Of a stretch of DNA of 57,323 nt, positions 3,415-54,940 are shown piece by piece. Under the pieces are notes generated by a model. That model was not told where the DNA came from. It was given only the letters and a program-made list of their open reading frames with translations, and made no database searches. The translations under genes were made by a program, and so were the position numbers. This DNA is from a virus. The stretch spans positions 1 to 57,323 of the IMG/VR virus record IMGVR_UViG_3300042295_002426, one strand, 5' to 3'. Position 1 is the first letter of the stretch, and each line of letters opens with the position of its first letter.

Positions 3415-3425
3415 TTAAGAAGGGA

Positions 3426-3854: not shown

Positions 3855-3863
3855 CGGGCGGGA

Positions 3864-4243: not shown

Positions 4244-4251
4244 GCCACGAG

Positions 4252-4297
4252 CGTTTTGAGTTGTCATCGGGAAGGAGTCGGGGCAAAACGTAGCATG
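4252..4297 (+). repeat. Regulatory direct repeat, copy 2, overlapping a start codon
   Basis: Reads CGTTTTGAGTTGTCATCGGG, then AAGGAGTCGGGGCAAAACGTAGC and ATG. It is the near copy of 3864-3911. Its last bases include the ATG at 4295, so the repeat supplies the leader of that gene. The AAGGAG core lies 17 bases upstream of the ATG, long for a functional Shine-Dalgarno, which favours an operator or promoter role. Confidence 0.6.
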
Positions 4298-13284: not shown

Positions 13285-13344
13285 CGCGTCAGGGAGTTTA
13301 TGAGATGCCGTTAAGGCTGCAATAAAGTGTCTAAAGACGCAAAC

Positions 13345-13620: not shown

Positions 13621-13638
13621 AAATCTTTCGTATCTTTA

Positions 13639-15372: not shown

Positions 15373-15490
15373 GGTGTCTGGTTTCGTGAACAAGGGCGGC
15401 GCTTCCCGTCCTGCGGTATTGTCGATTCAAGATTCTCGGACTTCCTCAGTCTCTTTCATGTTCCGACTTGAAAGATCCTTCGAGGTTTCA

Positions 15491-15808: not shown

Positions 15809-16338
15809 GGACAGCAGTCTTTCTGGGTGGATCCCAGAGGGCATTCACAACGATCTTTGCAAGTGTCCCAAAATGCAGATCCCTGAACTTGGCCGTATAT
15901 GTTTGAAGCCATGTCTCTCGCTGTGGATTCCCATCCTTCTCCGTCAATTAATAGATCCCAAGCCTCTTTCCCCAAGCTGAATAGCATTGCCATGGCTGAG
16001 TGGAAAATGTGGACTCGAGTAGAAATGCAATTGACGTAGCAATGCCTCTGTTTGTCTTTCCATATATCTTTATCGGGACAATGGGGAAATATCTCTACGG
16101 AGCGACGATAAATCAATTGATGAAGAATTCCTTCAATTATTGCAATGATTCCGAAAGCTGCCATCAGTCGGGGATCGAAAAGTCCGTATCTATCATTAGA
16201 ATTGATTGGATTGTTGGCTAGAAAGCCGTAGAGAGTTGAATCGGCGACCTCGCCGATAGGATCCCGATTGATCCACCTGCCAAGAAGCGGGACGTAGAAT
16301 CGGTAGCCGTAGTTACTGCTAGGGATTTCCTTTTTCAT
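15799..16338 (-). pseudogene. Orphan Rhs C-terminal tip 3
   Basis: Only the last ~22 residues of the Rhs core remain (NYGYRFYVPLLGRWINRDPI), followed by a tip homologous to that of 13639-15372: AAFGIIAIIEGILHQLIYRR, DKQRHCYVNCISTRVH, CKDRCECP, CCPCP. An ATG at 16338 (MKKEIPSSN) could start a 179-residue protein, but the upstream core is replaced by REP-like sequence containing CTTCCCGCCGTAGTCCCGG. I treat it as a displaced tip left by earlier recombination. It might still be expressed or serve as a donor. Confidence 0.7.
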
Positions 16339-39700: not shown

Positions 39701-42700
39701 CGCGGGCTCGATGTCCCAGACGAGCCGATCCTGGTTCGCGAAATCATCGACTTCACCCAGGGCGACGCGCGGAGTTTCGTGGTGGAGTCCAATCCGAAGC
39801 GGGGCGGAATGCTCGCGGAGTCCGTTTCCGAACAGGCCCTCCTCGACTCCGAGACCATCGGCGACGAGGTCCTCGCCAATCTCACCTTCACGGCGGATGG
39901 AAACCTTTCGGCCGGATCACTCGCTGCGGTGGCGTCGAAACTGGAAGAGGCGAACCGCGGGATCACGCGCACGCTCTCGGGTCAGTTCGACCGCTCCGAG
40001 GCTGGCCGCCGGGTCATGGCCGCGTTCCTTTCTCGGCTCGTCTCAAAGGCCGGGCGAGACGCCTCCGATGTCGCGTCGATCCTCGAATCCGATGGCGGCA
40101 AGCGCGCGGTGTCGGCGATCGCCCAGGCGGCTCCGCGACTCTCGAAACTCGATAACGATCTCTCGCTCGCATCGCCCATCGTGGAGTCGCTCTTGGAATT
40201 CAAATCCGGTCTCAGTGCGGTTTCAAAGGGAGAGTTTGCCAACGTAAGCGACTGGTTTGAGAACCGGACCAGTGAGCTGCTCGCGGCCAATCTCGATCCC
40301 GTCTCGCGAGAGATCCTCAAGGAAATGGCCGGGTCGGTGACTTCCGGGGCGGCCATGAGAGACCTCCTCGCCGAATATCTCGTGGACGCCGAGGCGGAAC
40401 AAAAGGAGCGTGACAGCGCATCTTCAACAGGTGATATTTTCGGTGATGAGCGAGCCAATCAAGCCCCCGAAGACATCTTCCGAAAGCTCGGTAGGATCAA
40501 AGGCCCGGACCCCGGTGTCGGCTCTGGAACTGTTGAGGCGAGCCAGCGCGAGACTGGAGGCCAAACGGAAGGCAGGCCAACCACCGGCCCAGCTGTAGGC
40601 CCGGAGGCCGAAGGCCAACTCATCCCCGAGGGCGAGATGCCCTTCAACCTCTCCGGCGAGACCATCGTCGAACCGCCGCCGGTCGAGCCCGAGGATACCC
40701 GCACCGATGCCGAGCAGGATGCGGACAGCGGACAGGGCCGCCTCTTTGAGGATCGCATCACCACGCCGCCACTCCGGCCGCGACAGGACCGGCTGGGCCG
40801 GTTGGGCCGGTTGGTCGATGGGTTCTCGGCGCGTCATCCCGAGAAACGCCCCGAGACGCCTCCTGCCCGCAACGAGGCGCAAGAGGAGCACCTGCGTGCC
40901 ATCAAGGCCGGAGTCGAGGAATACTTCGGCGGCGACGTCCCCGCCGGTGTTCGCGTTGTGTGGGATCCCGCGGCGGTTTGGGATGCCCAGTTCCACCGCG
41001 CGATGCGAATCATCGAGGCCAACGCGGCACTGATTAGGCGCGGCGAGATTTCGTTCAAGCTGGACCATGAGATTGGTCACCTCCTTTTCTCGGACAAACA
41101 GTTCGCAGCAGACTTTGAGACGCTCTGGAAGTCGCTCCCGAAAACCGTGCAAGATCGGATCAGCCGCGGCGTCCAGGGTCATGTCGAGCGGGGATACTAC
41201 GCCGAGGACGAGGCCTTTGAGGAAACCCGTGTCAGGGCTCTCGAACACATCCGCAGGGCGGCCTCCAGCGAAAATGCCGACCCTGCGATGAAGCGTGCGT
41301 GGCGCCGGTTTGTCCGCGCCGTGATCCGTGCGTTCAATCGTCTCACCGGCCGCAAGCCGGTCGACCCGCAGCGTCTCGCCGCGGCCATGATCGAGATCGG
41401 TGTCGCGAGGATGCGTGGCGATTCGGGCAGCGCCGGTGTCGGTAGTATGTCTTCCGTTGTCGAGTTCGAGACGTTCAAGGATTGGGCGCTTCGCGAAATC
41501 GCTGACAATCAGTTCCTCCAGGAGGACGCGGGGCGTCTCTGGGTGGCGTCCGATGTGCGGGGCAACGTCAACGAGGTCTTCGGTTCGTTCGCAGATGCCG
41601 ACGAATACTTCCGGACGATGTCAGGGAAAGGCGAGTTTCTCTGGGATGTGACCGAATCCTACGAGCGAATGGTGGGCGGGATCCCTGCTCGAAAGCCGGA
41701 TGGACCGATCAAGGCAAGCGAGGCGAAGCAGGCTTTCTATGGGCTCGAGCCCATGCCTGGCGAAACGCCAAGCGAGGCCGGAAACCTCCCGCAACTCACG
41801 CCGATGGGCAGGCCCGTCACTCCGGCGGTGTTGCCGGACCATGCGCTCCGCTACGGCTTGCCTTCTGATGAGGATTCCGGCCGCGATGCCACCCCCATGC
41901 GTCGCGTCCCGAATCCGGGTAAGCCCTACCGGCCGGGGCAAGCGATCTTCTCGATTCGTGAGGCGGGCGAAGTCGGATGGGAAGACCGGGCGCAACGGTT
42001 GATGCGGCGCATCGATCAGATGTATGCGACCGGCCGGGTCGAAGAGGTCGAAGATCTCGAAGCTGAACTGGAAGCCATCCTTGAGCGAGCGGACACCGAT
42101 CTCGACGGGATGGACGAGGGCGACGACGCCGACCAGGTGAGGGAAATGCAGACCAGCGACCTGTCGGAGTTTGATTCCGCGCCGCCGGATCCCGAGGCGC
42201 AGCTGGTGCAGTTCTGGCTCCAGTGGAACGGTCAAGGCGGGCCGTCGTACATGAGGGAATTGGCGAGGCGAGATAACGCCACCTTCGGCCAATATGTCCG
42301 GAACTCCCTTGGTGATTCCGCCTACGTCCTCAATGATGGAGTCACCGACGAACAGATCGAAGAAGCCGCCGAAGAGGCCTTCGCCAACTACGAGCGAAGG
42401 AGGAACGCGATGCTTCGCGCACTTGAGCGTCGCCGTAGCATCTCATCGATCGCCGCGGATGACCCAGGCCAGACCACGCCTGAACCACCGCTCTCCATCG
42501 ACGGTCCGATCGAATCGGACATCGACGCCGCGGCCGAGGCCCTAGCCAATCTGGAGTCGGCCTTCCGGGTTTCCTTCTTGGTGGGCGACTTCGACGGGGC
42601 GGCATCCGCGATGGACTCCGCGAACGTCGAGACCTTTACGGCCTTTGCCGAGAAGCTGATCCGGTTGGCCGCGGCCGGTGACCCAAGCGCCGAAGGAATG

Positions 42701-45700
42701 CTGGAGTGGATCGAGGCGATCAACTCCGGGACGCGCGTGGACACCGACATCGATCCGGAGCTCGAGGATCTGATCCGCAAGATGCGTGAGCGGTTCCCCA
42801 ATCGACGACGCAGGGGTAGGGCCGACCATCTCCAGAAGTTCCACTCTCCGGACGCATTCGCCGCCGCGTTTGCCGCGTTCGTGGCCGCGGGCGACTTCCA
42901 GAGCGCCTACGAGGCCGTGCGCGACACGGATGACAGCATCCGCATCCCGGTGATGAAGCGGTTCCTCAAGGCGGCCAAGGGCGGTGATCCGGTGGCGAAG
43001 AAGAACTACGAGTGGATGAGTCACATCTTCAATGGCACGACGCCACCTGGAGTCTCTCAGCCCGGTGCCGGAACCTCCGCACCTCCTCCGGGGAGCGCCC
43101 CGCCACCCGGGTCGTCAACCCCGCCACCGGGAGCTTCGGCGCCTCCGCCAAGTGCGCCTCCGCCGGTCGCGCCGAAGACGCCGCCTCCCCGGCCCAGTGG
43201 AGTCGAGAAGCTGAACATTCCCGCCCTGGTGTTCCTCGCCAAGCGCATGGGGACCACGCCGATCGTGAGACGGTTCCGGGCACGGGGGATGTATCAAACG
43301 ACCAACCCACGCGGCCAGCGCCAGGACAATCCGAAGATCTTCGTGAACGAGTTCCTCGCGAAGGAGGACTGGCAACAAGCGGCGCGGACCCTCGCCCACG
43401 AGATCGGTCACTTCATCGACTACATCATCGCCGCTGTCCCAAGCGCAGACATCGTCAAGAGCCTCATCCCGCTGCAAGCCGAGCGGGACCAGTTCATCGA
43501 GGACATCTTCGGTGTCGGGACGGCCTACACTGCGGCGCGGAAATACATGATGGAGGAGGCTGTCGCGCTTTCGAAACGGATGCGCGGAGACTTTTCGCCG
43601 TCGGACTCCTACCGGATGTCGGCGGCTGAGCTCTACGCCGATTTTCTCTCGGCGGTGATGATCGACCCGGATCTGGCGTTCGACGTCGCCCCGCTGATTT
43701 CGCACGCCTGGTTCGCCCACCTCAACCAGAAGCCGGAGGCGGAATCAGCGTGGAACCTGATCCAAAACCTCATCAAGGGGGACGGGCTCCACGATGCGAT
43801 CAGGAGCGGCCGCGTCACCGAGCAACGCGCCGCCATGACCGAAGTGCGGAACCGGGCGGACAGACGCAGCGCCCTCCACGCCGGCTGGAAGAAATTCCGC
43901 AACGGTCTCGCGGGGGCCCTCTGGAGCCGTTACCTCCCGGCTGCCGCCAAGGGCGCGAGCAGTTCCGGTCGATGGGAGTTCACCAACCGGTGGTGGAAGG
44001 CGGTGACCCAACCGAACGAGAACGACTTCCTCGCGCGGATGGAAGGCGCGGAGATCGAAGCCTCCCAGCGGGGGAGCGTCCTGCGGATCAAGATGCAGCG
44101 CGACGTCTACGACCCGCTGATGCGGCACGGCATCGACACGGCGCAACTCGACGAATACCTCACCTTCTTCCAGATCCTCAACGAGGACACCGCGACCCGG
44201 CAATACCTCAACGCGAATCCTGACGAGTTCCGCGAATTCCTCCTCTGGCTCGACGACACCGTCTCGCTGTCGCGCGAGGCAGAGATTCAGGGCGCGGCGG
44301 ATGCTGACTTGGATGAAATCGGAGCGACCATGGTGGGGCACATCCAGCTCCACGATCTGTTCGATACGGTGTATGCGGCGGCGCAGAGTATCGATGCCCC
44401 GGACATCGCGGAGCTGGGCCTCTTTGCCTTCGACATCGCCCGCTACCAGTGGAACCAGGACGGGCACACTCCCGAAACCGCCCAGCAGGGCATGGAATTC
44501 CTCCGCCGCGAACTGGGCGACGAACGCTTCAAGGTGCTTCGCGATGCGTCGAAGGCGTTCCATCAGAACCTTGCCGGGATCGTCCGCGAGGCGAATTCCG
44601 TGGGGCTCTTCAGCGACCGGATCTGGAACGAGAAGATCAAGACCAACCTCGGCAACTACGTGCCCCGAATGGTGCTGGAGTATTTCACCGGCGAGATGTC
44701 GGCCTCGATCAAGCAACGGCGCGGCAGCGTGAAGGCGACCTTGCCCAAGCAACTCGCGGGCGAAGGCCAGGCGATGGTGCTGCTCCACAAGATCGCCAAG
44801 CAGAAGCAGATACTGATGATCCTGGAACAGGCTGCCGACCTCGGGTGGAACAAGGAGATCCGGCGGATCAACATCCCCAAGGGAAAAAATGTCGAGGCGC
44901 TCGCCAAGAAAATGGCGAGGGAGGAAGGCAAGGGACTGCGCGGCTACTGGGTGAAGGGCAAGTGGCGGTGGCTCGAGTTCGATGACATCGACGTGGTGCG
45001 GTGGATGGACTCCGCCTCCCCCACTGATCTGAAGTTTCTCTACGACATCGCCAAGGCGAACGAGAGCTTCTGGCGTCTCTCGACGACCGTGCTCAATGCC
45101 TCCTTCGCGCTCTACAACAACTGGGCGAGGACGGTCGCCGGGTTGCCGATGGACTATGGGCCGAGGGCGGTCGCGCACACGATCCGCCAGATCCCGGAAG
45201 CGGTGAACTGGGCCAAGGCGAGCCTGGGCCGCGCCGCGCCCTCTGACCGTGTCCTCGATCTGGTCGAGCGCGGCGTGCTGCCGGCCTTTGGCCAATACAC
45301 CGCCGGAGACCTGCTGCTCTCGCACGACGACCTCATCGACCAGATCTCCTCCGGCCTCGTCGGCATCGACGCGCTTCGTCGCGGTTCCCGTGCTTTCGGG
45401 CCCCTCGAAAAAGTGGCGAACCTGCCAGGGCTCCGACAGGTCATCGAGTTTCTGGGGATGTTCACCGGCACGGCCGAAGCCCTACCGAAGCTCGCGGTCG
45501 AGTCCCTCCTCGAAAAGCGCGGACTGCCGCAGTGGGAGCGGGATCGTCTCGCCCGGATGGAGGGCATCCCCAACACCGGCCTCTCGGCCGGGAAATACGG
45601 ATCCTATGCCGGACTGCTCTCCCTGTTTTACCGGGTCTGGGCACAGGGCACGCGCCGCATGATGACCTTGCCTTTCAATCCCAGAACGCGGGGAGCCTGG

Positions 45701-46738
45701 TGGATGGGCAACCTCCTCGGCTACGGCGCCATCAAAGCCTTCTACTCGGCAGCCGCGGCGGGGATCCTCGACGCCATGATGGGTGGAGGCGAAGACGAGG
45801 AAAAGCAGGTCGATTGGCAGGAGGCTTACACCCGAGTCTCGCCCTACAAGATCCGCATGGCCGACGCCTTTTTCCTGGGGTGGGTGCTCCCGGACGGATC
45901 CTACGAGCCGCCCTACGGCCACACCTCCATCCCAGGGAACTGGACGCCGATGATGTGGCGAATCCCCTACACGGAATCGGGTCGATTGACGGCCCCCTTG
46001 GCTTCGCTCTGGACGAGTCTGGCGATGCCGAGCAGCCCCTTGCGGCCGCGGAACTGGAGGGAGGGCATGCGCGTGGTCCGCGATGTGGCCCAGAACTCGA
46101 TCCTGCCAAGTGCCAACCCGGTTTTCGAAAACGGCGGATACGCCCTCTCGATCTTTAACCCGAGATCACCCTACGACGCCTATTCCGGCCGCGATGTCGT
46201 GCCGGAGGACGAGTGGGACGCTGGCATCCCTTCGCGTGCCTGGGGCATCACCCGGCACCTCCTCGAAGAGACTCCGGCCCGGAACGTGGTCCCTGCGGTG
46301 AAGCAGGGAATCCGCAACGAAAACGCGCTGCCACCCTGGGCCAGAGCGGTCATGAGCATCCCCGGAGCCTCCGCGGCGATCTCCTTCGACAACAGTCCGA
46401 TGGCCGCCGACTACATGGACCGCATCGAGGAGCGGGACTCCGTGAACCGCGAAGCGCGGCGACTCCGGGGACCGAAGGCGATGGAGGCGGTTTCCCTGCG
46501 ATCCCGGCTCAACCGGATCCCTTCGGAAAAGCGGACGCCGGATGAGCAGGCCAAGATCGAAGTCCTCAACGCCTGGTATCGGGAAGCCTACCTCGGCTCT
46601 GATCTCTATCCCGGCCTCTTCCGGGAACTCCAGGCCGCGGCAAGCGGGATGGAGGGAATTGATGAGAAAGCAGCGAAGAAGGCGCTGGAGGAGACGGCAA
46701 GCGAGGTGCTGCGGGAGATTGGCGGGGTGGGGAGGTGA
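36785..46738 (+). CDS. Giant 3317-aa polyvalent virion protein with ParB-like and two zincin domains
   Basis: One open frame of 9.95 kb, about 17% of the window. Order seen: Pro-rich linker (about 40-95); charged helices; hydrophobic stretch about 442-505 (SDASMVLGGMLPTMMVSLGT); Pro/Gly/Ser linker 618-692; small beta domain; ParB/DdrB-like domain about 869-1205 (PVSSMGAPAVFEGKVLAGNG, REIIDFTQGDARSFV); zinc-protease motif HEIGH at 1428-1432; helical and Asp/Glu-rich part; Pro linker 2084-2140; second zinc-protease motif AHEIGHFIDY (H2205) with a likely third ligand in SAAELYADF (E2282); long helical polyvalent-type region; hydrophobic GYGAIKAFYSAAAAGILDAM near 2980. Such proteins are packaged and injected to cross the envelope and protect DNA. 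Confidence 0.8.
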   Translation: MGNFFEDFIFSAKNGHIYLGDYGEWTPEEIIDGSWLKQFRPSPKPSVAPAPKAKPGDTESAKGAQPSPSTPAPEAPPPDPSPEPAVATPAPMPTLDAVIDHGQKAGKSPEEIAEAAKKWRDKARTWGEENFRETDPNKWFAGNRKLDARIRDELAAIQGREATERIATEIRDPGDRQRFAEQYSQSNGDLNAFEEGSPARSLAEILNQEVFQSPKFTLRGGGSGPMPFSTEAGVPLGDFETQIRPEGDLDVVIRVDDEEKGSVRKAITIPEITDEDIEAARRKAEEEATQLRQIERTTNQGLRDDLADEPVQRGYDVGYQGNLKLRKEKAERAAETARLKAGQSESRANVLADPGRGRLLLLREQVEEQIKADKDLKKVVGDVALGEDFWRGVQQTHLGARMAVADATGNEEEKTKVRELIGDLSQIYPGSTNLQFRGGAGAFASDASMVLGGMLPTMMVSLGTGGAAAVSGAAVGGLTRTAALSPIGLSAYGNAYATMLNEADALDEIGRREEAAQRRKDARVYALAQAGVEVGTELIFKEEMFRVGGKGFFSKVGAGAAQNTVEELLAATGNAELDREFRDELPKEGQIARETLLGTVVGGLMQVPGGAVEVFLPKPQPGTPAGNATPPPGTSPGATPPPSSAPPPGATPPPSSPPPGTAPPPPATSSPPSSAPPPDTTPSAPPPGTQLTVPGDAALYQIGGRSFAWTRWGWFDRDANKLIDPLAELGLVVQLDEARRRLNSGEQPVSPEVTLNPGETPRILSIDGNRFFMIDPAGRGWLEVFPATGKPSQLVNFALEGSSGVETLRRLQAKVAELRGETPADPNETPDPPVEPTPPVETPSNESDPAPEIPERPADGTVSSGKPNGAKARFRWRIVSRSDIEAMVVRDIEEAQTRQRKGNVASDEQRERMATGLDPDLVMESPVSSMGAPAVFEGKVLAGNGRADGISEAYRRGLAADYEARIRAFATERGLDVPDEPILVREIIDFTQGDARSFVVESNPKRGGMLAESVSEQALLDSETIGDEVLANLTFTADGNLSAGSLAAVASKLEEANRGITRTLSGQFDRSEAGRRVMAAFLSRLVSKAGRDASDVASILESDGGKRAVSAIAQAAPRLSKLDNDLSLASPIVESLLEFKSGLSAVSKGEFANVSDWFENRTSELLAANLDPVSREILKEMAGSVTSGAAMRDLLAEYLVDAEAEQKERDSASSTGDIFGDERANQAPEDIFRKLGRIKGPDPGVGSGTVEASQRETGGQTEGRPTTGPAVGPEAEGQLIPEGEMPFNLSGETIVEPPPVEPEDTRTDAEQDADSGQGRLFEDRITTPPLRPRQDRLGRLGRLVDGFSARHPEKRPETPPARNEAQEEHLRAIKAGVEEYFGGDVPAGVRVVWDPAAVWDAQFHRAMRIIEANAALIRRGEISFKLDHEIGHLLFSDKQFAADFETLWKSLPKTVQDRISRGVQGHVERGYYAEDEAFEETRVRALEHIRRAASSENADPAMKRAWRRFVRAVIRAFNRLTGRKPVDPQRLAAAMIEIGVARMRGDSGSAGVGSMSSVVEFETFKDWALREIADNQFLQEDAGRLWVASDVRGNVNEVFGSFADADEYFRTMSGKGEFLWDVTESYERMVGGIPARKPDGPIKASEAKQAFYGLEPMPGETPSEAGNLPQLTPMGRPVTPAVLPDHALRYGLPSDEDSGRDATPMRRVPNPGKPYRPGQAIFSIREAGEVGWEDRAQRLMRRIDQMYATGRVEEVEDLEAELEAILERADTDLDGMDEGDDADQVREMQTSDLSEFDSAPPDPEAQLVQFWLQWNGQGGPSYMRELARRDNATFGQYVRNSLGDSAYVLNDGVTDEQIEEAAEEAFANYERRRNAMLRALERRRSISSIAADDPGQTTPEPPLSIDGPIESDIDAAAEALANLESAFRVSFLVGDFDGAASAMDSANVETFTAFAEKLIRLAAAGDPSAEGMLEWIEAINSGTRVDTDIDPELEDLIRKMRERFPNRRRRGRADHLQKFHSPDAFAAAFAAFVAAGDFQSAYEAVRDTDDSIRIPVMKRFLKAAKGGDPVAKKNYEWMSHIFNGTTPPGVSQPGAGTSAPPPGSAPPPGSSTPPPGASAPPPSAPPPVAPKTPPPRPSGVEKLNIPALVFLAKRMGTTPIVRRFRARGMYQTTNPRGQRQDNPKIFVNEFLAKEDWQQAARTLAHEIGHFIDYIIAAVPSADIVKSLIPLQAERDQFIEDIFGVGTAYTAARKYMMEEAVALSKRMRGDFSPSDSYRMSAAELYADFLSAVMIDPDLAFDVAPLISHAWFAHLNQKPEAESAWNLIQNLIKGDGLHDAIRSGRVTEQRAAMTEVRNRADRRSALHAGWKKFRNGLAGALWSRYLPAAAKGASSSGRWEFTNRWWKAVTQPNENDFLARMEGAEIEASQRGSVLRIKMQRDVYDPLMRHGIDTAQLDEYLTFFQILNEDTATRQYLNANPDEFREFLLWLDDTVSLSREAEIQGAADADLDEIGATMVGHIQLHDLFDTVYAAAQSIDAPDIAELGLFAFDIARYQWNQDGHTPETAQQGMEFLRRELGDERFKVLRDASKAFHQNLAGIVREANSVGLFSDRIWNEKIKTNLGNYVPRMVLEYFTGEMSASIKQRRGSVKATLPKQLAGEGQAMVLLHKIAKQKQILMILEQAADLGWNKEIRRINIPKGKNVEALAKKMAREEGKGLRGYWVKGKWRWLEFDDIDVVRWMDSASPTDLKFLYDIAKANESFWRLSTTVLNASFALYNNWARTVAGLPMDYGPRAVAHTIRQIPEAVNWAKASLGRAAPSDRVLDLVERGVLPAFGQYTAGDLLLSHDDLIDQISSGLVGIDALRRGSRAFGPLEKVANLPGLRQVIEFLGMFTGTAEALPKLAVESLLEKRGLPQWERDRLARMEGIPNTGLSAGKYGSYAGLLSLFYRVWAQGTRRMMTLPFNPRTRGAWWMGNLLGYGAIKAFYSAAAAGILDAMMGGGEDEEKQVDWQEAYTRVSPYKIRMADAFFLGWVLPDGSYEPPYGHTSIPGNWTPMMWRIPYTESGRLTAPLASLWTSLAMPSSPLRPRNWREGMRVVRDVAQNSILPSANPVFENGGYALSIFNPRSPYDAYSGRDVVPEDEWDAGIPSRAWGITRHLLEETPARNVVPAVKQGIRNENALPPWARAVMSIPGASAAISFDNSPMAADYMDRIEERDSVNREARRLRGPKAMEAVSLRSRLNRIPSEKRTPDEQAKIEVLNAWYREAYLGSDLYPGLFRELQAAASGMEGIDEKAAKKALEETASEVLREIGGVGR

Positions 46739-46784: not shown

Positions 46785-46881
46785 ACAGAACGTCAAAGGT
46801 GTGGCACGGCGGAGATTGAACGTCCAGAGCGAAGCGAACGAGAGACGTTGCCCGCCGTTGCCACCACTGTCTTGTTCGGCT
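46785..46881 (-). other. attC-like site 1 (distal end of array)
   Basis: Minus strand: GCCGAACAAGACAGTGGTGG, then CAACGGCGG, a ~38-base loop, CCGCCGTGCCACACCTTTG and ACGTTCTG. The arms CAGTGGTGGCAACGGCGG and CCGCCGTGCCACACC pair with small bulges, the shape of an attC. The loop holds a second AACGTC/GACGTT pair. It lies 46 bases after the giant virion gene and marks the junction with phage DNA. Confidence 0.75.
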
Positions 46882-46887
46882 TATTCA

Positions 46888-47322
46888 TTACCTCGGATCT
46901 GTCCTGTGAATTGATATTTCATTCGACAGGGCTGTTGCCGTCGCTTGTATGTAAATTCTCTTCTTTGATATCGTAATCGGGTGCTTCGAACTGAATTTGA
47001 GCAGATCCCAGTGTGAGAGTTCAAGAGTATAGCTACCTTCTGGGAGATCGAGTTCCAACGAATCTCCAATCTTCAGTTCTTTGGGAGTTCCTCCGTCCAC
47101 CGATATAGTGATTTTGCCACTTAGCGCATGCGTGACGCGACTTGAATTATTGATTACTACAAGATTAGGGCTCTCATAAGGAACTTCAATGACCTTCTGA
47201 GATTCTATGATCTTATTGCCATCGACCTTCGTCGTTGATTTAGAGGATGGCCTGAGGAAGAACGCAATCACGACAAGTGCTATTGCGCAAATGACGATTT
47301 TAGGATTAATGGACTTTTTCAT
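46888..47322 (-). CDS. Cassette gene: membrane-anchored protein, 144 aa
   Basis: One N-terminal transmembrane helix (KIVICAIALVVIAFFLRP) and a beta-rich outer domain (PNLVVINNSSRVTHALSGKI, DSLELDLPEGSYTLELSHWD). No family recognised. Starts 10 bases downstream of the site at 47332-47420 and ends at site 1. AT-rich compared with the phage genes. Confidence 0.65.
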   Translation of the reverse strand: MKKSINPKIVICAIALVVIAFFLRPSSKSTTKVDGNKIIESQKVIEVPYESPNLVVINNSSRVTHALSGKITISVDGGTPKELKIGDSLELDLPEGSYTLELSHWDLLKFSSKHPITISKKRIYIQATATALSNEISIHRTDPR

Positions 47323-47331
47323 AGATTCTTA

Positions 47332-47420
47332 GCCGAACGTCTAGCTCATCCACGGCGGGGAGGGAAGTCCGAAATCAAACGGGAACGTTATCCGCCGTTG
47401 GATGGAGCGTCTTGTTCTGC
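47332..47420 (-). other. attC-like site 2
   Basis: Minus strand: GCAGAACAAGACGCTCCATC, CAACGGCGG, loop, CCGCCGTGGATGAGCTAG, ACGTTCGGCT. Arms (CGCTCCATCCAACGGCGG / CCGCCGTGGATGAGC) pair with a bulge; R'' GCAGAAC and R' GTTCGGC. Confidence 0.75.
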
Positions 47421-47461
47421 TAGAATGTGTTTTCGTATGGTGCAATCGATGGAGAAAAATG

Positions 47462-47923
47462 TTAGATGTCTTGATATGCTCTGAGTTCCGACGCCTTTGC
47501 ACTGAGACCCTCAATTCGCAGGTGCTCCTCATCATAGGACGTGTGTCGGATCGTGTTGAGGATCCACCCGTCAGATCCATTGCAATCATAGAGAACTTCC
47601 TGCAGAATTTCGAGGGCGAAATAGCTTAACGCCGCTTCCCGCAACTTGGGATCTTCTAGAATCTTATCTACGGAGGGCCAATCGCATTCCCTTAAAGCTA
47701 TTTCGAAGTCTAACCCATCATCAGGGAATTTCCTCGCATCTTCGACAAACTCTTCTAACTCCGCGTCTAGAACTCGTCTAAGACACGAATGAGGCAACGT
47801 AAGCTCGTAAGCAAGATCTCGGACACCTGGTGTCCGCCAATGTTGGTCGAAGTTCATGTGGCGAACCGCGACCTTCTGAAGGTCGCGGTTCACGCCGTCA
47901 ATTGTGATCGTCGCACTTGTCAT
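47462..47923 (-). CDS. Cassette gene: soluble protein of unknown function, 153 aa
   Basis: MTSATITIDGVNRDLQKVAV, then GVRDLAYELTLPHSCLRRVL and YFALEILQEVLYDCNGSDGW. Cytosolic, acidic, mostly helical after a short beta start. No family recognised. The ATG lies about six bases from the R' box of site 3, typical of cassette genes, so there is almost no leader. Confidence 0.65.
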   Translation of the reverse strand: MTSATITIDGVNRDLQKVAVRHMNFDQHWRTPGVRDLAYELTLPHSCLRRVLDAELEEFVEDARKFPDDGLDFEIALRECDWPSVDKILEDPKLREAALSYFALEILQEVLYDCNGSDGWILNTIRHTSYDEEHLRIEGLSAKASELRAYQDI

Positions 47924-47928
47924 TTAGA

Positions 47929-48023
47929 GCAGAACGTCTCGGATCAGGCGACGGCGAGCGCAAGACGTTGCTGACACGACAAATCGCCTTCGAGCCGTTG
48001 CCTGCATCCGTTTTGTTCGGCCT
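47929..48023 (-). other. attC-like site 3
   Basis: Minus strand: GGCCGAACAAAACGGATGCA, GGCAACGGC, loop, GCCGTCGCCTGATCCGAG, ACGTTCTGC. CGGATGCAGGCAACGGC pairs with GCCGTCGCCTGATCCG with an extrahelical base, as in attC sites. Confidence 0.8.
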
Positions 48024-48038
48024 TGGTTGAGGCATAGG

Positions 48039-48569
48039 TTAAGTGTGACTGCTGACCAATGCTGCTCGGATAGCTTCTTGCCAAACTAAGTTCTGATTCA
48101 CAACAAACTTGTGAGTCTCGCCAGAGGTCAACGTGATCTGAAGTCCGTTCGGTATCATCCCGAGTGACTTTGTGGCCTCTACTTTGACAATGTCGGAAAG
48201 TAGCGCAGCCCATTCGTGATTCTGAATGTTCAGCTTGTGAGATCGAAAGAAAAGCCTGCCGGTGGTAAGCCAGAGGTAGCCACGAACTCCCTCGGCACCT
48301 TTGAAGTGGTTCGCGAGGCCCTCGTGGGTCACGTCTTCCCCGGCAAAATCAGGGCGATCAATCACGAAGCGCTTGGCCCGACCTTTAGCAAACCTAGCCA
48401 TTAGAACCCCGAAAATCACCCCTGCCAGCAACCCTCCGCTCATGCCCAGAATCCAATTGCCACTCTGGACAGAGAATACCACCCCCATCGGAAAGCCGTA
48501 GAGCAAGGCCGCGAGCCATTTGCTTCTGGCAGTGTTAGCGGGGGTTGAGGATGCTGGCTCGGTTGTCAT
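48039..48569 (-). CDS. Cassette gene: membrane protein with GRAM/PH-like domain, 176 aa
   Basis: From MTTEPASSTPANTARS. Two hydrophobic segments (WLAALLYGFPMGVVFSV; ILGMSGGLLAGVIFGVLMAR) precede a cytoplasmic GRAM-type domain: GYLWLTTGRLFFRSHKLNIQ, IPNGLQITLTSGETHKFVVN, QNLVWQEAIRAAL. GRAM domains fold like PH domains and bind lipids or proteins. The start at 48614 would lie inside attC-like site 4 and is rejected. No operon partner; role unknown. Confidence 0.7.
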   Translation of the reverse strand: MTTEPASSTPANTARSKWLAALLYGFPMGVVFSVQSGNWILGMSGGLLAGVIFGVLMARFAKGRAKRFVIDRPDFAGEDVTHEGLANHFKGAEGVRGYLWLTTGRLFFRSHKLNIQNHEWAALLSDIVKVEATKSLGMIPNGLQITLTSGETHKFVVNQNLVWQEAIRAALVSSHT

Positions 48570-48592
48570 TGGGCGGGTGACTTTGGTGCTTG

Positions 48593-48645
48593 GCCGAACG
48601 TAAAGCGCTGGCACCCGCTACCGGGAGCGCCCCTTCGATTCTGGC
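48593..48645 (-). other. attC-like site 4 (R'' box weak)
   Basis: Minus strand: GGGGCGCTCCCGGTAGCGGG, TGCCAGCGCTTTACGTTCGG. R' ACGTTCGGC and a compact stem (GGCGCTCCCG / CGGGTGCCAGCGC) are clear, but the outer R'' box is poorly conserved. The end of the gene 48618-49190 lies within the site. Confidence 0.6.
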
Positions 48646-49190
48646 TGAGGTTTGTCACTACCGGCCGACTTCGACTCCGGAGCGGTAGCGGGTTGTCCAG
48701 GCGCGGCTTGTTCGGTCAATTTTCTCGCCTGAAGGATCCCGCTCGAAATAGCCTTACGCTGCGCTTCCGTGAATTCAAGCAGCTCTCTTTTGTATCCACC
48801 CTTTACCGGAATTTCCTTCGATACCGATAATTTCGAGAGATCGTCCAGTGAAAAAAAGCAAATATACCCGCCATTCTTTTCGGTCATGAACTCCATATTT
48901 AAGTAAGGATCCCCCTCGTGCCACCAAGCTGCAAACATCCGAATATTTGATTCCTTGGCTTGCGACTTTAGGATTTCTATCAAAAAATCAGGAAACTTGA
49001 AGCTCTGGCCTCCTACCGTAAGAACATACTTTTCCTTGTCAAAATGAGCAGGGTTATATGCATCAGGCAATCCTACCAGGTCTCCATCATTGAGAAATAT
49101 CTCCTTATCGAGGTGCGCTTGAACGTTGCTGGCTCCAAATAGCAATATCGCTGAAAGAAGGGCCAGTTTACTAAAAACTCGTGAATTCAT
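48618..49190 (-). CDS. Cassette gene: secreted protein, 190 aa
   Basis: Signal peptide (LALLSAILLFGASNVQA). Mature part: DGDLVGLPDAYNPAHFDKEK, YVLTVGGQSFKFPDFLIEIL, NGGYICFFSLDDLSKLSVSK, with a hydrophilic Pro/Ser/Lys-rich tail. No family recognised. Exported, probably periplasmic. Starts 23 bases from the R' box of site 5. Confidence 0.65.
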   Translation of the reverse strand: MNSRVFSKLALLSAILLFGASNVQAHLDKEIFLNDGDLVGLPDAYNPAHFDKEKYVLTVGGQSFKFPDFLIEILKSQAKESNIRMFAAWWHEGDPYLNMEFMTEKNGGYICFFSLDDLSKLSVSKEIPVKGGYKRELLEFTEAQRKAISSGILQARKLTEQAAPGQPATAPESKSAGSDKPQPESKGRSR

Positions 49191-49212
49191 GATAATGAGT
49201 GTGCAGTCTTTC

Positions 49213-49292
49213 CCCGAACGTTTGAGTGCTTCTACGGGCGCGGTTGAGTGGAGATTGAAGTGAAATTGAAAAGCTTATGGCCCGTTAGGAGG
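49213..49292 (-). other. attC-like site 5
   Basis: Minus strand: CCTAACGGGCCATAAGC, a long AT-rich loop, then CGCGCCCGTAGAAGCACTCA and AACGTTCGGGG. The R'' box lies inside the last codons of the gene 49275-50327. Short stem (CGGGCC / GCGCCCG); box spacing fits attC, arm pairing is weaker than at the other sites. Confidence 0.65.
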
Positions 49293-50327
49293 CACGACTT
49301 GTTCTGCTTCTTCGTTAGTGCTCGTGAAGAACAAATGCTCGTTGGTTTGGAACCATTTGATTCGCGCATCGCAATCGGCGATCAACTTCCTGATATCCGC
49401 CAACTGCGCCTTCCCAAAAGAACCTTTCTCTGCATTACGATTCTTAAAAAACTCACCTGGATTCAGGGAAACATCTGCTTCCTTCGTGTTGTGATTCGCT
49501 GTCACAGAATATCTCCTACCTTCCTCATCTCCCGAAGTGAATGTATATGCATGACCAGCTTCAACAGCTTCCAACGCTAATGCAATCTTCTGGAGCAGGC
49601 CAGCGACCCAGTCTCCGCCCAGTGTTCCATTCAACTCACCGTCTCCCGAATACAGGCATAGCGTATGTCCGATTGTGTATTGAGGATCTTCTGTGCGTGA
49701 GTACGAGTTGACTGAAACCTCGTAGCCAATTCCCTTGCCTGAAACCGTCCCAATCGACGAATCGAGGTAATATCCTTTAGCTTGTGGAGCTCTCGCCTCT
49801 TCGTTCGGCACAGGCATTGTCTCCTCGACCAACAACTTTCTGAACCATGTCTGCCCGGCTCTCGCCTGGGCAAGCGCGGCCCTGACTTTGGCTGCTTCGC
49901 CCGGCAGGAACTCCGCCTGCTCTTCTCCACGACGGATTCGAATCATCTTCTTTCCATCCACCTCAACGACTTCATAGATGGTCTCCTTCTCGCCTCTGAA
50001 GGTCTTTGTCTTCACCGATTTCCGAAACTCCTTGCCATCCTGTGCCGCATCTCCTGCCGCCATAAATACTTCCAAATCTGTATCTGGAAGCATGCGCTGA
50101 GCGGCTTCGAACTCAAAACAGTTGACCTCAACCGAGGTCGATCCATTTGGTTCCTCAGCACTTCGTGAAACGCTGACCGAGACATGCAGGCGATCTCCTT
50201 CGTTTCTTCTGTCCATCCAATCATTCGTCTCAACGCTGACGTGAAACGCGTTAAATGGAATCAGATCTCCTCCAGACAATGGAAGAGCCAGAAGTAGCGA
50301 TACTAGAAGTGATGGAAGCGTCTTCAT
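49275..50327 (-). CDS. Cassette gene: secreted protein, 350 aa
   Basis: From MKTLPSLLVSLLLALPLSGG (signal peptide); the longer frame to 50363 runs into site 6. The mature part is beta-rich with helical sections: FNAFHVSVETNDWMDRRNEG, KEFRKSVKTKTFRGEKETI, LLQKIALALEAVEAGHAYTF, ADIRKLIADCDARIKWFQTN. No family recognised. It is the largest gene in the array. Exported protein, function unknown. Confidence 0.65.
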   Translation of the reverse strand: MKTLPSLLVSLLLALPLSGGDLIPFNAFHVSVETNDWMDRRNEGDRLHVSVSVSRSAEEPNGSTSVEVNCFEFEAAQRMLPDTDLEVFMAAGDAAQDGKEFRKSVKTKTFRGEKETIYEVVEVDGKKMIRIRRGEEQAEFLPGEAAKVRAALAQARAGQTWFRKLLVEETMPVPNEEARAPQAKGYYLDSSIGTVSGKGIGYEVSVNSYSRTEDPQYTIGHTLCLYSGDGELNGTLGGDWVAGLLQKIALALEAVEAGHAYTFTSGDEEGRRYSVTANHNTKEADVSLNPGEFFKNRNAEKGSFGKAQLADIRKLIADCDARIKWFQTNEHLFFTSTNEEAEQVVPPNGP

Positions 50328-50331
50328 TTTC

Positions 50332-50390
50332 TGCAGAACGTCAAGCGCAGGGGAGGGCTGCAAGCCCTTCCCTGTCGCGATTTGTTAGCT
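50332..50390 (-). other. attC-like site 6 (clearest example)
   Basis: Minus strand: GCTAACAAATCGCGACAGGG, AAGGGCTTGCAGCCCTCCCC, TGCGCTTGACGTTCTGC: 59 bases. Boxes GCTAAC and ACGTTCTGC flank a stem (CAGGGAAGGGC / GCCCTCCCCTG) with a mismatch and a TTGCA loop. Size and shape match a typical integron 59-base element. Confidence 0.85.
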
Positions 50391-50777
50391 TGGTTTGCTG
50401 GTGCGGTTCCGTCGCGCGCCCCTAATGAGCGCGAATACAAATGAGATGCTTCCTGCCAAGACTGCGCCGATCAGGAACATCACGAGCGGGTGTTCGCCGT
50501 TTATTGTGGCGATTGAGAGAAATATCATCGATCCAACGACACATCCACCGAGCGTATAGTTTTTGATCGTTTCCATGCCAAGTTTTCGAAAGATCAGGAA
50601 GGACAACAAGAGCGGAGGCCATGAAAAGGCGTAGGCAACAAGACTGGTCCACCCCAAGTAGTTCCTGAAACTTTCATGACTGAATGAATCGATTCGCATT
50701 GCCGACCCAAGAACGGTCAGGATCAAAGGAGCAATCAGAAAGGCGTAGATGATTCTTGCTGGCTCTGAGATCTTCAA
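50385..50777 (-). CDS. Cassette gene: integral membrane protein, 130 aa
   Basis: Four hydrophobic segments (IYAFLIAPLILTVLGSAM; SLVAYAFSWPPLLLSFLIF; GGCVVGSMIFLSIATI; VMFLIGAVLAGSISFVFALI) with a basic C-terminus (RGARRNRTSK). Unknown family. Starts seven bases from the site-7 R' box and ends inside site 6. Confidence 0.65.
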   Translation of the reverse strand: MKISEPARIIYAFLIAPLILTVLGSAMRIDSFSHESFRNYLGWTSLVAYAFSWPPLLLSFLIFRKLGMETIKNYTLGGCVVGSMIFLSIATINGEHPLVMFLIGAVLAGSISFVFALIRGARRNRTSKPS

Positions 50778-50783
50778 TTTATT

Positions 50784-50844
50784 GAGCTAACGTTGGAGGC
50801 CATCGGACGGGCGTCAGGCCGTTCGATGCGCCGCCTAGTTCGGC
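50784..50844 (-). other. attC-like site 7
   Basis: Minus strand: GCCGAACTAGGCGGCGCATC, GAACGGCCTGACGCCCGTCC, GATGGCCTCCAACGTTAGCT: 61 bases. The R'' box contains the last codon of the gene 50835-51092. Stem GCATCGAACGG / CCGTCCGATG pairs with mismatches. Box AACGTTAGC is very close to the canonical GTTRRRY. Confidence 0.85.
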
Positions 50845-51092
50845 TTTTCGGTTTCAGTCTCTGTGATTGGAGGATACGCGAATCGAATCAGAAACGGAGC
50901 ACCCCGTAGCAGATAAAGCCCAATGACGAAATAGGTGCCTCCCGTGATAAAATATGAGATCAAGTAGCCTGGACTATCCTCTGGAAGGCCGACAATCGTG
51001 GCCACTCCGTAAACAAGATACCAAATCGCATAGATGAACAGGGAGAGCCCGAAGGTCCGGATGATAATTCCAAAAATGTCGCGAGGTTCCAT
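50835..51092 (-). CDS. Cassette gene: small membrane protein, 85 aa
   Basis: From MEPRDIFGIIIRTFGLSLFI; two hydrophobic segments (GIIIRTFGLSLFIYAIWYLV; YLISYFITGGTYFVIGLYLL) and a charged tail (PPITETETEKPN). The longer frame to 51203 would read through the boundary box and palindrome. First gene of the array in the direction of transcription. Unknown function. Confidence 0.6.
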   Translation of the reverse strand: MEPRDIFGIIIRTFGLSLFIYAIWYLVYGVATIVGLPEDSPGYLISYFITGGTYFVIGLYLLRGAPFLIRFAYPPITETETEKPN

Positions 51093-51403
51093 GATTTTGG
51101 TATGAAGCTTCTCTGATTTTTCTGCCGAACGTTGTTTAGCCACAAAAAATTGTGGACTAATCTGATTCGTCCACAATTTCTTGTGGGCGAATCGGATTCT
51201 CAATTACGCCTCCGATTCTTCATAATCGGCCACCGAAGTCAAGCCTCGGGCGCGTCCCTGCTCCCACGATGGAGTGGTCGAACCCGCCGAACCCGTAGGC
51301 GGGCCCCGTTTCGGCTGCCCGGGCCTGCTCCGGGGTAAGTTTCGCACCCCCATCCCAAGTTTTTCCTTGAAAAACAACTGATCCATGATGCCGTTAGAGG
51401 GAG
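51093..51403. other. Proximal array boundary: R'-like box and 47-base palindrome, no gene
   Basis: The R'-like CAACGTTCGGC (minus, 51133-51123) is the last cassette box. Immediately beyond is an imperfect palindrome at 51140-51186 with 22-base arms differing at two positions (CCACAAAAAATTGTGGAC... versus CCACAAGAAATTGTGGAC...) and a TG centre. It is far more AT-rich than the phage DNA. From about 51240 the GC rises and phage sequence resumes up to the start at 51404. No matching R'' box is seen, so the palindrome is not a standard attC. Confidence 0.6.
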
Positions 51404-52063
51404 ATGGAGAACGTGTTTTTTAACGTTTTGAAGGATCGCGAGTCCCCTCCCGGCGGATGGAGGTGGCATCACCCCGTTACCGGCCAAATCTTCTCCCGCG
51501 AAAGCTTCTCCGACCTGCTCGAAAGCGCCCAGCGAACACTGCTCAATCTGGGCCTCGACCCGTCCCTCGCCTCGACCCAGATCCACCAAGCCACGGCGGC
51601 CAACCTCATTCAGCTCGGTCGAAACGACCTCGTCCAGGTCACCAAGGAAGTCCCCCGCTCTGCCGAGCAATACACCGCCGGCGCCAAAGCGACCTTCCTC
51701 AAGTGGTGGCGCGAGAGTCCGATCTTCGGTCTCCTCCAAGGCAAGGCGAGCCGCGGCGAACCCGTCTTTGTCCCTGACGACGTCGCCAACGGTCGCGCCC
51801 TCGTCTGCGCGAAGTGCCCCCACAACGTCATCCCGGCCGGGAAGGGGTGGCTGCAAAACTGGACCGACGGACAGATGCTGAAATCCGTCGAGGGCCGCAC
51901 GACCGCGAGCCAGGACCGTCTCGGCGTCTGCGAGGTCTGCTCGTGCGAGCTGCGGGCAGCGGTCTGGTGGCAACCGGACATCATCGCCACGACCACGCGC
52001 GACGCGAAATTCGCCCGTCGTCTGCCACGGCATTGCTGGAAGCGCAAGATCCTAGAATTATGA
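51404..52063 (+). CDS. Phage protein with two CxxC pairs (zinc-binding?), 219 aa
   Basis: MENVFFNVLKDRESPPGGWR starts with AGGGAG close upstream. N-terminal half helical (FSDLLESAQRTLLNLGLDPS, TAGAKATFLKWWRESPIFGL); the C-terminal half has ALVCAKCPHNV (C135, C138) and GVCEVCSCEL (C176, C179, C181), likely a zinc ribbon, and a basic tail. No family recognised. It precedes the portal genes with coupled starts, so a head-assembly or packaging role is possible. A broken copy lies outside attL at 2878-3414, lacking the second CxxC pair. Confidence 0.75.
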   Translation: MENVFFNVLKDRESPPGGWRWHHPVTGQIFSRESFSDLLESAQRTLLNLGLDPSLASTQIHQATAANLIQLGRNDLVQVTKEVPRSAEQYTAGAKATFLKWWRESPIFGLLQGKASRGEPVFVPDDVANGRALVCAKCPHNVIPAGKGWLQNWTDGQMLKSVEGRTTASQDRLGVCEVCSCELRAAVWWQPDIIATTTRDAKFARRLPRHCWKRKILEL

Positions 52064-52347
52064 TACCCCAACCCACCACCGAAACCGAAGCGCCGGCCCA
52101 GCCGGATAACGTCACCCCCATCGGCATTCCCGCTGACGATGCCGCTCCGACCCCGGAGCAGATTGAAGCCGCCCGGAAGGCAGTCGAGGAAGACATGCGG
52201 GAAGCGCTCCCCTTCAACCGTCTCGCCATCCATGTCGGATTTCAGCGCGCCATCCAGGGGGCGGTGGCGGGAAACAAGCCAGAGAAGGTCGGGCCGCTCT
52301 GCGCTGCCTTCCGCAGCTTCGCTGAAGCCGAATCTCTCCTCAAATGA
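52060..52347 (+). CDS. Small phage protein upstream of portal, 95 aa
   Basis: Start overlaps the previous stop and its stop overlaps the portal start (ATGA both). A Pro/Thr-rich acidic N-terminus (MIPQPTTETEAPAQPDNVTP) and a helical C-terminus (AIHVGFQRAIQGAVAGNKPE, AAFRSFAEAESLLK). Likely a small head-assembly or portal-associated protein; no family recognised. Confidence 0.65.
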   Translation: MIPQPTTETEAPAQPDNVTPIGIPADDAAPTPEQIEAARKAVEEDMREALPFNRLAIHVGFQRAIQGAVAGNKPEKVGPLCAAFRSFAEAESLLK

Positions 52348-54602
52348 CCACAACCCCTCCGGCGGAAGCAGACGCCCTCCGCGCCCCCGATCCGGCGCGT
52401 CCCTCAGCGGGCCGCGTCATCGATGCGCCGCGCGTCCGCGGCCTGATCTCCGCCGGTGCCCGGAACCTCGAACACCGCTTGGAACAATATCGGCTGGTCG
52501 AGGACGCCTACGACCGTGTCCCGCCCGATACCGAGGAGCAACTCCGCGCCGACGGTCTCGGGTGGGCCGCTAACGTCGACTGGGGTGGAATGGAGGCCGG
52601 GATCGATTCGGCGGCATCGCCCTACGTCAATCTCCTGACCGAGCCGGAGCCTTTCGTGAAGTTCTGCTCCTACGCACAGATCCCGAACCTGCACCATGCC
52701 CTCACCGAGCTCGCCCGCGCCGACGCGGAGCTGCTGCGCGACTGGCCGGACTGGATCTACGAGGCCCAGATGATGATCCACAACCGGGTCGCGCATGGGA
52801 TGGGCATCTTCTATTTCCCCCAGCCGCACGGATGGCACTTCCAGTCGCTGCACCCGGCGAACCTGATCACCCCGCCGAAGGCCGGGCTCAATCCCGAGCG
52901 GTGGCCCTGGTGCGCCGTTGTCACGGAGTTCGAGGTGCCGGATCTGCTCGCCAAGCTGACCGACAAGGACGAGGCGCGGAAGCAGGGCTGGAACCCGCCC
53001 GCGGTGCGCGATGCCATCGAAAAATACCGGCGCGGCGACGGCGCCCGGTGGCCCCACAACCTGGACGTCGATCAGGCGGTCCACGGGTTTTCGAACCATT
53101 CCATGATGGGCGTCTTCGACGAGTCGGTCACCATCAAGGGATTCATCTTCTACGTCCGCGAGAGCGACGGGACGATCTCCGAGTATTGGCTGACCAATCA
53201 GGAGGAGGTGGGATTCCTCTACAAACGGCAGAAGCAACAGAGCCGGATGTCGCGGGTGATCAGCGTCTTCCCCCACGGCCTGGGGAGCGGCTACCTCAAC
53301 AAGGTCCGCGGGCACGGCATCAAGAGTCTGCCGTATCACGATCTGGAGAACCGTGCCTTCAACCACTCGATCGATGTGACCTTCCTCGCCTCGAACCTCA
53401 TGCTCCGAGGCAACGGCCAGGATCTGCATCGCCTCCCCGAGATGGTCTTCGGACCGGTGACGGTGATCCCGGAGGAGTTCGCGCTCGAGCAGCAGTCCTT
53501 CCAGAATCCGGCCGGTGGGCTCGTACAGCTCTACCGCGAGATGAACGCGATGCGGGCCAGTCGCAACCAGGTCTTCGGCGGGAACATCGATGTCTCTCCG
53601 AACGTGGACCGCACCGCCTCCGGCGCCCGGATGCGCTACCAGGAACAGACCGGGATCCGAAGCCACGACGTCGCCCGTTTCTATCATCAGGTGCGGATGT
53701 TCCACGCAGCCCGCTGGGAGCGCATGATGGACCCGGAAGCCGCCGAATCCGATCCCGGCATGGCCGAGGCGAAGGAGATGCTGCGACGGGCCATGCTCCG
53801 CGGCTGCCCACCGGAAGCCATCGCGGGCATCTACAAGGTCAACGTGGTGACGGTCTTTGGCGAAGGCGATCCGGTGAACCAGTTTCTCGCCATGATGGAT
53901 GTCCGGGAACTCTACGGCCAACTCACCCCGACGGGCCGGAAGGTCTACGCCCGCGCCACCCTCAACGCCCGCCTCCGCGACCCAGACCTGGTGGATCAGC
54001 TCGTGGGCCGAGAGGATGCCCTCATCGACGAGGCCGACTCCCGGCACCGCCAGATCGCCCAGGGCGAGAATGCCGACTTCCAGAGCAGCGATGTCCGCAT
54101 CGATGTGGCCGAGACCGACAACCACCTCATCCACGCCGGCGAGCACACCGTCTTCACCGAGGACACTCTCGGGCAATTGGGCGAGGGAATCCTGTCGGAG
54201 GAGGATGCGTTCCGGACCGTCTCGCGCGTCCAGGCCCACATGGGCCCCCACCTCGAAATGGTCGCGAGCGATCCTCTGAGCCAGGCCGAGGCCAAGGATC
54301 TCCAGCGACGGTGGGCCGACATCACCAACTCCCTGCGCCAACTCGCTCAGAAGCTCGAAGCGAAGCGACAGCGGATGCAGGAAGAGCAGATGGAGGAGCT
54401 CCGCAACCCGCGCCCATCGGTGAAGGATCAGGAGACCGCGCTGACCGAGGAGGTCAAACGCCAGAGCCTCCTGCGCGAGACTGAAGCAAAGATCACCATT
54501 CTCGAGCGCGAGTCCCGGTTCCGCATGGGGCGAGAAATGGAGACGGCTGCCCAGGAAGGCCGCATCGCCGAGCTCAAACGTCTACCCGTCGAAAACGCAT
54601 GA
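52344..54602 (+). CDS. Portal protein (podovirus-type head-tail connector)
   Basis: 752 residues, acidic and soluble. YVNLLTEPEPFVKFCSYAQI, NRVAHGMGIFYFPQPHGWHF and FGPVTVIPEEFALEQQSFQN with the long stem-like helices near MNAMRASRNQVFGGNIDVSP fit portal proteins of podoviruses, and RTASGARMRYQEQTGIRSHD is a typical wing-crown segment. The C-terminal 150 residues are charged coiled coil (LRQLAQKLEAKRQRMQEEQM). It forms the dodecameric channel that works with the large terminase. It is coupled to small genes on both sides. Confidence 0.82.
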   Translation: MTTTPPAEADALRAPDPARPSAGRVIDAPRVRGLISAGARNLEHRLEQYRLVEDAYDRVPPDTEEQLRADGLGWAANVDWGGMEAGIDSAASPYVNLLTEPEPFVKFCSYAQIPNLHHALTELARADAELLRDWPDWIYEAQMMIHNRVAHGMGIFYFPQPHGWHFQSLHPANLITPPKAGLNPERWPWCAVVTEFEVPDLLAKLTDKDEARKQGWNPPAVRDAIEKYRRGDGARWPHNLDVDQAVHGFSNHSMMGVFDESVTIKGFIFYVRESDGTISEYWLTNQEEVGFLYKRQKQQSRMSRVISVFPHGLGSGYLNKVRGHGIKSLPYHDLENRAFNHSIDVTFLASNLMLRGNGQDLHRLPEMVFGPVTVIPEEFALEQQSFQNPAGGLVQLYREMNAMRASRNQVFGGNIDVSPNVDRTASGARMRYQEQTGIRSHDVARFYHQVRMFHAARWERMMDPEAAESDPGMAEAKEMLRRAMLRGCPPEAIAGIYKVNVVTVFGEGDPVNQFLAMMDVRELYGQLTPTGRKVYARATLNARLRDPDLVDQLVGREDALIDEADSRHRQIAQGENADFQSSDVRIDVAETDNHLIHAGEHTVFTEDTLGQLGEGILSEEDAFRTVSRVQAHMGPHLEMVASDPLSQAEAKDLQRRWADITNSLRQLAQKLEAKRQRMQEEQMEELRNPRPSVKDQETALTEEVKRQSLLRETEAKITILERESRFRMGREMETAAQEGRIAELKRLPVENA

Positions 54603-54934
54603 GAATCGCCCCCTATGTCACGCCCGATGAATTTTGCCGCGACCCGGAAAACGTGGACGCACTCGTCTCCTTCCTGCAATCCGCTCCCGGACAGGCGCTG
54701 CAATCGGTGCTCCTGGGGCTGAACCCGGCCCGTCAATCCCTCCGGGCCCCCACCATGCCGGACTCGCTCCCGGAGCGGGCTGAGCATCTTTTGGGGAAGT
54801 GTCAGGGCTTCGAGTATGCCTTCGAGTTGCTGACCCAGACCCTCACGCAAAAGACCCGCGAGTTTCCCAAGATGTCTTCGAAGGCATCCGGACCGCGGGC
54901 CGAGATCCGGCCGGTGAATCCTCCGGTGCCGTGA
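54599..54934 (+). CDS. Small phage protein between portal and scaffold, 111 aa
   Basis: Overlaps the portal stop by four bases. MRIAPYVTPDEFCRDPENVD, LVSFLQSAPGQALQSVLLGL, YAFELLTQTLTQKTREFPKM; helical, no family recognised. Its place between portal and scaffold suggests a head-assembly accessory. Confidence 0.6.
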   Translation: MRIAPYVTPDEFCRDPENVDALVSFLQSAPGQALQSVLLGLNPARQSLRAPTMPDSLPERAEHLLGKCQGFEYAFELLTQTLTQKTREFPKMSSKASGPRAEIRPVNPPVP

Positions 54935-54940
54935 CCCTTT

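Follow-up and report, generated by a model that had tools for sequence, protein, structure and literature searches.

The 57,323-base IMG/VR virus record IMGVR_UViG_3300042295_002426, analysed over its whole length and called here the window, raises the question of how a block of leftward genes came to lie among phage genes of the opposite direction. Seven minus-strand ORFs (85–350 aa) were located within 46888–51092, between a giant phage gene and the gene beginning at 51404, and a palindromic site was found on the 3' side of each of them. The G+C content of this insert was 50% in comparison with 62–64% in the flanks, and the shift was sharp at both ends. The ORFs, designated cassettes 7 to 1 from left to right, and the flanking phage genes are as follows:

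36785..46738, plus strand: giant phage gene (3317 aa) with a ddrB-like ParB domain, directly left of the array
46888..47322, minus strand: cassette 7 ORF, 144 aa; no family above its cut-off
47462..47923, minus strand: cassette 6 ORF, 153 aa; no relative in 240 genomes
48039..48569, minus strand: cassette 5 ORF, 176 aa; GRAM-like domain just below the Pfam cut-off
48618..49190, minus strand: cassette 4 ORF, 190 aa; 3' end overlaps its attC site; 71% DNA match over ~480 bp in G154
49275..50327, minus strand: cassette 3 ORF, 350 aa; amino acid relatives in G010 (67%) and G133 (61%)
50385..50777, minus strand: cassette 2 ORF, 130 aa; probable membrane protein, hydrophobic stretches seen by eye
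50835..51092, minus strand: cassette 1 ORF, 85 aa; probable membrane protein
51365..54602, plus strand: phage block right of the array, comprising gene 51404, a small gene and a probable portal gene; 77% DNA identity to L006, synteny with G014

The element is most probably (about 0.9) a verrucomicrobial integron that was carried into the genome of a temperate phage and lost its integrase gene, keeping attI, the initial 17 or so codons of intI and seven cassettes that run against the surrounding virion genes. The attC sites, the attI site, the intI relic and the boundary of cassette 5 exactly at the recombination point are the parts of this reading that are seen in the sequence itself.

To avoid circularity, the attC sites were scored with a covariance model, R2, whose alignment (A2) consisted solely of 17 verrucomicrobial attC sites taken from other, cellular genomes. 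These sites belong to cassette arrays that mostly adjoin integron integrases detected in genomes of the related order. The model was run unfiltered over the whole 57-kb window. Its top seven matches coincided exactly with the seven sites reported and all fell on the minus strand, with E values from 5e-13 to 0.0015 for six of them and 0.16 for the seventh; the next match in the window had an E value of 0.83. The sites, with their R2 scores and their identities to cellular sites, are:

46785..46880, minus strand: attC of cassette 7, the last in the array; 62.2 bits, E 1.1e-11; 91% to a cellular attC in L042
47332..47420, minus strand: attC of cassette 6; E 1.6e-10; 93% to cellular attC in L043 and L046
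47929..48021, minus strand: attC of cassette 5; E 4.8e-13; 95–98% to cellular attC in L046, L040, L089 and L094
48593..48716, minus strand: attC of cassette 4; E 2.8e-8; 71–75% to cellular attC in L043, L050 and L102
49213..49307, minus strand: attC of cassette 3; E 5e-4; 75% to L035
50333..50389, minus strand: attC of cassette 2; E 0.0015; 87–90% to cellular attC in L043 and L102
50785..50844, minus strand: attC of cassette 1, the weakest of the seven; rank 7 of all matches, E 0.16

The earlier note had described seven leftward genes with palindromic sites and one shared direction, which the ORF list and the minus-strand R2 matches confirmed, and its suggestion that the sites would score as attC was borne out by the seven being the best matches of a model derived from cellular verrucomicrobial attC. 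Sites 2 to 7 also gave BLAST matches to cellular sites at 71–98% identity. In the related order, 135 of 240 genomes matched the array DNA at E ≤1e-10, and attC sites made up most of the matches listed. In the window, the R' box has the sequence GTTCGGC or GTTCTGC and thus deviates from the textbook GTTRRRY, a departure that was also observed in many cellular verrucomicrobial sites. In the predicted folds, read by eye, unpaired bases were located on the 5' (L'') side of the stems, which is typical of attC. A loose attC stem descriptor was dropped as evidence, since shuffled DNA yielded as many sites with it as the window itself; the weight of the attC case was therefore placed on the covariance model and on homology. 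A search with Rfam gave no match anywhere over the window, and of the five viral contigs matched by a first attC DNA pattern, none scored as attC.

Cassettes 1, 2 and 7 were compared with the genomes at the DNA level, through the search with the array. None of the seven cassettes matched the defence-system models, and nothing was found when the array DNA was compared with plasmids. A distant relative of cassette 3 was located among attC sites in G172, a genome with a related integron. Cassette 5 was present at 95% DNA identity in two cellular genomes, G199 (L089) and G153 (L095). The homology begins exactly at the crossover point G|TT, after unrelated upstream DNA, with 18–20 of 20 bases matching downstream of this point and 5–8 of 20 in the 60 bases upstream. 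Directly before the crossover stands attI in G153, attC 4 in the window and another sequence ending in an R'-like ACG in G199, where the attC after the cassette is truncated and belongs to the same type as that of the window. Such a boundary at G|TT, together with the occurrence of the same cassette in other contexts, was demonstrated for one of the seven cassettes. The expectation that the cassettes occur in other integrons accordingly holds for at least this one, which is bounded elsewhere by integron sites.

The window encodes phage-type genes for a terminase, an endolysin, a primase/helicase, an exonuclease and a virion protein, most of the other proteins being without a family match. Terminase, lysis and replication genes are thus present, and a homologous prophage exists in a bacterial genome, as expected of a temperate phage or prophage. 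The gene at the contig end (56172–57323) looks tyrosine-recombinase-like by eye and matched no family, because of which the temperate life style is regarded only as likely. The closest relative of the portal gene was detected in L006, a 3.1-kb contig of a Verrucomicrobiia metagenome genome, which matches the window from 51365 onward. Where the window has the array, L006 carries two different leftward genes without attC, one of which (L006:1-1150) resembles formylglycine-generating enzymes by eye. The array position therefore seems, from this comparison of sequences, to accept cargo. In the more distant prophage G014, the terminase lies directly upstream of the homologue of gene 51404, and the terminase, gene 51404, portal and capsid-side genes form one plus-strand run. 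In the window, the terminase (21045–22829) has an inverted orientation, and 29 kb separate it from the portal block (51404–56188), so the module order is rearranged relative to G014.

These relatives bear on the proposal that the seven genes form a conserved operon of ordinary phage type, with the palindromes acting as terminators. Palindromes between co-directional genes would suit such an operon, but the R2 matches identify them as attC in sequence and structure, cassette 5 is present in cellular integron settings, and the same phage block occurs in both L006 and G014 without the array genes at its side, which means that these genes are not part of a conserved phage operon. The finding of such an operon in related phages, which the earlier note named as grounds for giving up the integron interpretation, did not occur, and the chance that the operon explanation is correct is negligible. 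No empty site between 46738 and 51404 was found, and searches that included IMG/VR gave no relative for the 3' end of the giant gene. Scanning IMG/VR with the portal, the terminase and the end of the giant gene revealed no relatives, and nothing was found for the portal DNA and the terminase protein among phage records.

Several other features were observed in the window. The left contig end (1–1002) encodes an IS630-type transposase (DDE_3). A partial second copy of gene 51404–52063, with 77% DNA identity, occupies 2998–3392 and is cut off at about 3393. Upstream of it is a leftward low-G+C gene (1796–2632) with GYF and zinc-ribbon domains, giving the same order of leftward cargo and then 51404 as beside the portal gene; the partial copy and this gene may be what is left of another related prophage. 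Immediately to the right of the truncated copy, at 3424–3466 (near 3430) on the minus strand, the 3' half of a tRNA-Thr was recognized by eye, although it was not reported by ARAGORN or Rfam, and it is possibly the left attachment site of the prophage. A 40-bp direct repeat (3862–3901 and 4249–4288, 92.5% identical) lies near the left prophage end. Two RHS-repeat genes (11596–15393) are 89% identical over 1335 bp with differing C-terminal ends, which looks like a core duplication with changed tips, and a third short fragment lies at 16249–16315.

On the right side of the array, the first cassette adjoins two further features:

51121..51193, minus strand: attI, joined to cassette 1 at G|TT near 51131; 79–92% identical to attI sites in about ten verrucomicrobial integrons of cellular genomes
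51202..51254, plus strand: dead 5' intI stub; 78% identical to the L015 intI start over 54 nt, aligned with nine intI starts

In most of the cellular integrons compared, the window attI aligned with the region immediately upstream of an intact intI. The motif CGAACGTTGTTTAGCCACA and inverted TTGTGG/CCACAA elements were common to the alignment. The motif at about 51125, previously counted among the attC sites, turned out to be the attI/cassette 1 junction. A 15-base attI pattern retrieved 30 viral contigs, none of which matches the window attI beyond a 22-base stretch. The match of the intI stub to L015 scored above all of 2000 shuffles. The start codon of the stub has been lost, an in-frame TAA is present, the homology ends after about 17 codons, and about 34 bp before the intI start are deleted in comparison with the relatives. 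With the stub on the right and the array on the left, the two are divergent, as in the normal integron arrangement. The cassette promoter often sits in the intI end of integrons, and a promoter-like site facing the cassettes was found in the retained intI end (51242–51215, minus strand), the match being weak. At about 51343–51356, 14 bases match the reverse strand at the 3' end of intI; this match is not clearly beyond chance and could represent an inverted intI remnant.

The array contains more than the two attC sites that define an integron gene-cassette array, with their R''/R' boxes, L stems and structure, and, as stated in the earlier note, no integron integrase is encoded in the record. 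The description of the element as a cluster of attC sites without integrase (CALIN, at least two attC and no intI in the vicinity) therefore holds in part, and the attI and the truncated intI, which are additional to the usual CALIN, set it apart from a plain cluster. As in a complete integron, attI lies beside the first cassette, but a functional integron integrase gene is absent, and since only a dead 5' stub of ~50 bp is left, the element was classed as a relic without integrase rather than a complete integron. Because the stub lies beyond attI, the right end of the element moves from the 51134 given earlier (for 46785–51134) to about 51254.

The attI and the stub also bear on the way in which the array reached the phage. 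Cassettes inserted by a host IntI at a non-attI (attG-like) phage site would form a plain attC cluster without integrase, in agreement with the absence of an integrase gene from the record and with the position of the last attC, which lies 46 bp away from the giant phage gene's stop codon. The first cassette is, however, adjoined by a conserved attI and the start of intI in the usual divergent arrangement, and a secondary-site insertion would not bring these along. This route was rejected as very improbable for the array as a whole and could apply at most to single cassettes added later. It is also improbable that the contig is a chimera in which a host integron fragment was misassembled onto phage sequence. 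Host genomes contain attC in many copies, repeats of this kind break or misjoin assemblies, and the G+C content jumps at both ends of the insert; nevertheless, the two junctions with the phage do not fall within attC repeats shared with the phage. At the right junction, the intI stub is followed by unrelated DNA and then by the phage from 51365, and L006 switches to its leftward cargo at the same boundary, which argues against misassembly on that side. The stub is, moreover, degenerate, as expected of an old relic and not of a live host integron.

The evidence thus favors an integron block that entered the phage genome and lost its integrase gene. The host group is probably Verrucomicrobia, the link being one 3.1-kb contig (L006) in a metagenome bin, connected to the window by sequence similarity. 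The genome bin holding this contig encodes two integron integrases over the curated cut-off, one of which is preceded by an attI matching that of the window (86% over 51 bp).

Among 10,705 phage genomes, Qi et al. 2023 (PMC9892861) identified 17 attC clusters, 3 complete integrons and one In0, and recombination of phage attC by IntI1 was demonstrated there. Those phages, like the window, carry attC arrays mostly without an integrase and cassettes mostly of unknown function. The window differs from them in its probable host group, Verrucomicrobia, in keeping attI with a dead intI stub, in the orientation of its array against the late genes and in having a cassette that was traced, with exact boundaries, to genomes of cells. 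Cellular verrucomicrobial integrons (L042, L043, L044 and L046; IntI of L015, NCBIfam TIGR02249) have the same attC families (71–98%), attI (79–92%), divergent layout and one cassette in common with the window, but they possess an intact intI and reside in bacterial genomes, whereas the window retains a 50-bp intI relic inside a phage. A further phage contig, L088 (IMG/VR contig 3300042560_002198), encodes a terminase and a head-tail connector and carries near the terminase a strong, cassette-5-type attC (69.6 bits) together with a weaker one (855–947 and 1112–1200). It represents a different phage, and no attI was found there. Given this second contig with attC of the same family, the phage-borne verrucomicrobial array of the window may not be unique. 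Integrons and attC clusters in phages are already published (PMC9892861), and what is new here is the host group, the attI retained with a dead intI and the cellular copies proving the cassette boundary. No paper on integrons in verrucomicrobial phages was found in the literature searched, though such papers may exist.

The following course of events could account for these data. The cassettes would have been loaded by IntI in a bacterial integron, and a block comprising attI, the array and all or part of intI would then have entered the phage genome by recombination other than that of IntI, since attI and intI came along. The loss of intI would have left a phage copy unable to move cassettes by itself. 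A host IntI might act in trans on the phage attI and attC sites, and the phage would carry cassettes between cells and hand them to host integrons. Such an action of host IntI is plausible, judged from the presence of IntI and a similar attI in the related lineage. A more general possibility, put forward tentatively and held to be doubtful, is that verrucomicrobial temperate phages maintain integrase-less platforms of attI plus array serviced in trans by host chromosomal IntI, with the phage acting as a recurrent shuttle, taking up cassettes at one host integron and unloading them at the next.

Integron cassettes in phages were previously documented for a small number of phages. Here, a phage array was linked to the pool of cassettes in the probable host group through an exact recombination boundary, and concrete sites are supplied for testing the host integrase on a phage-borne attI. 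The phage is a possible carrier of cassettes between cells, and the finding suggests that phages move cassettes among Verrucomicrobia, in which the arrays hold mostly genes of unknown function.
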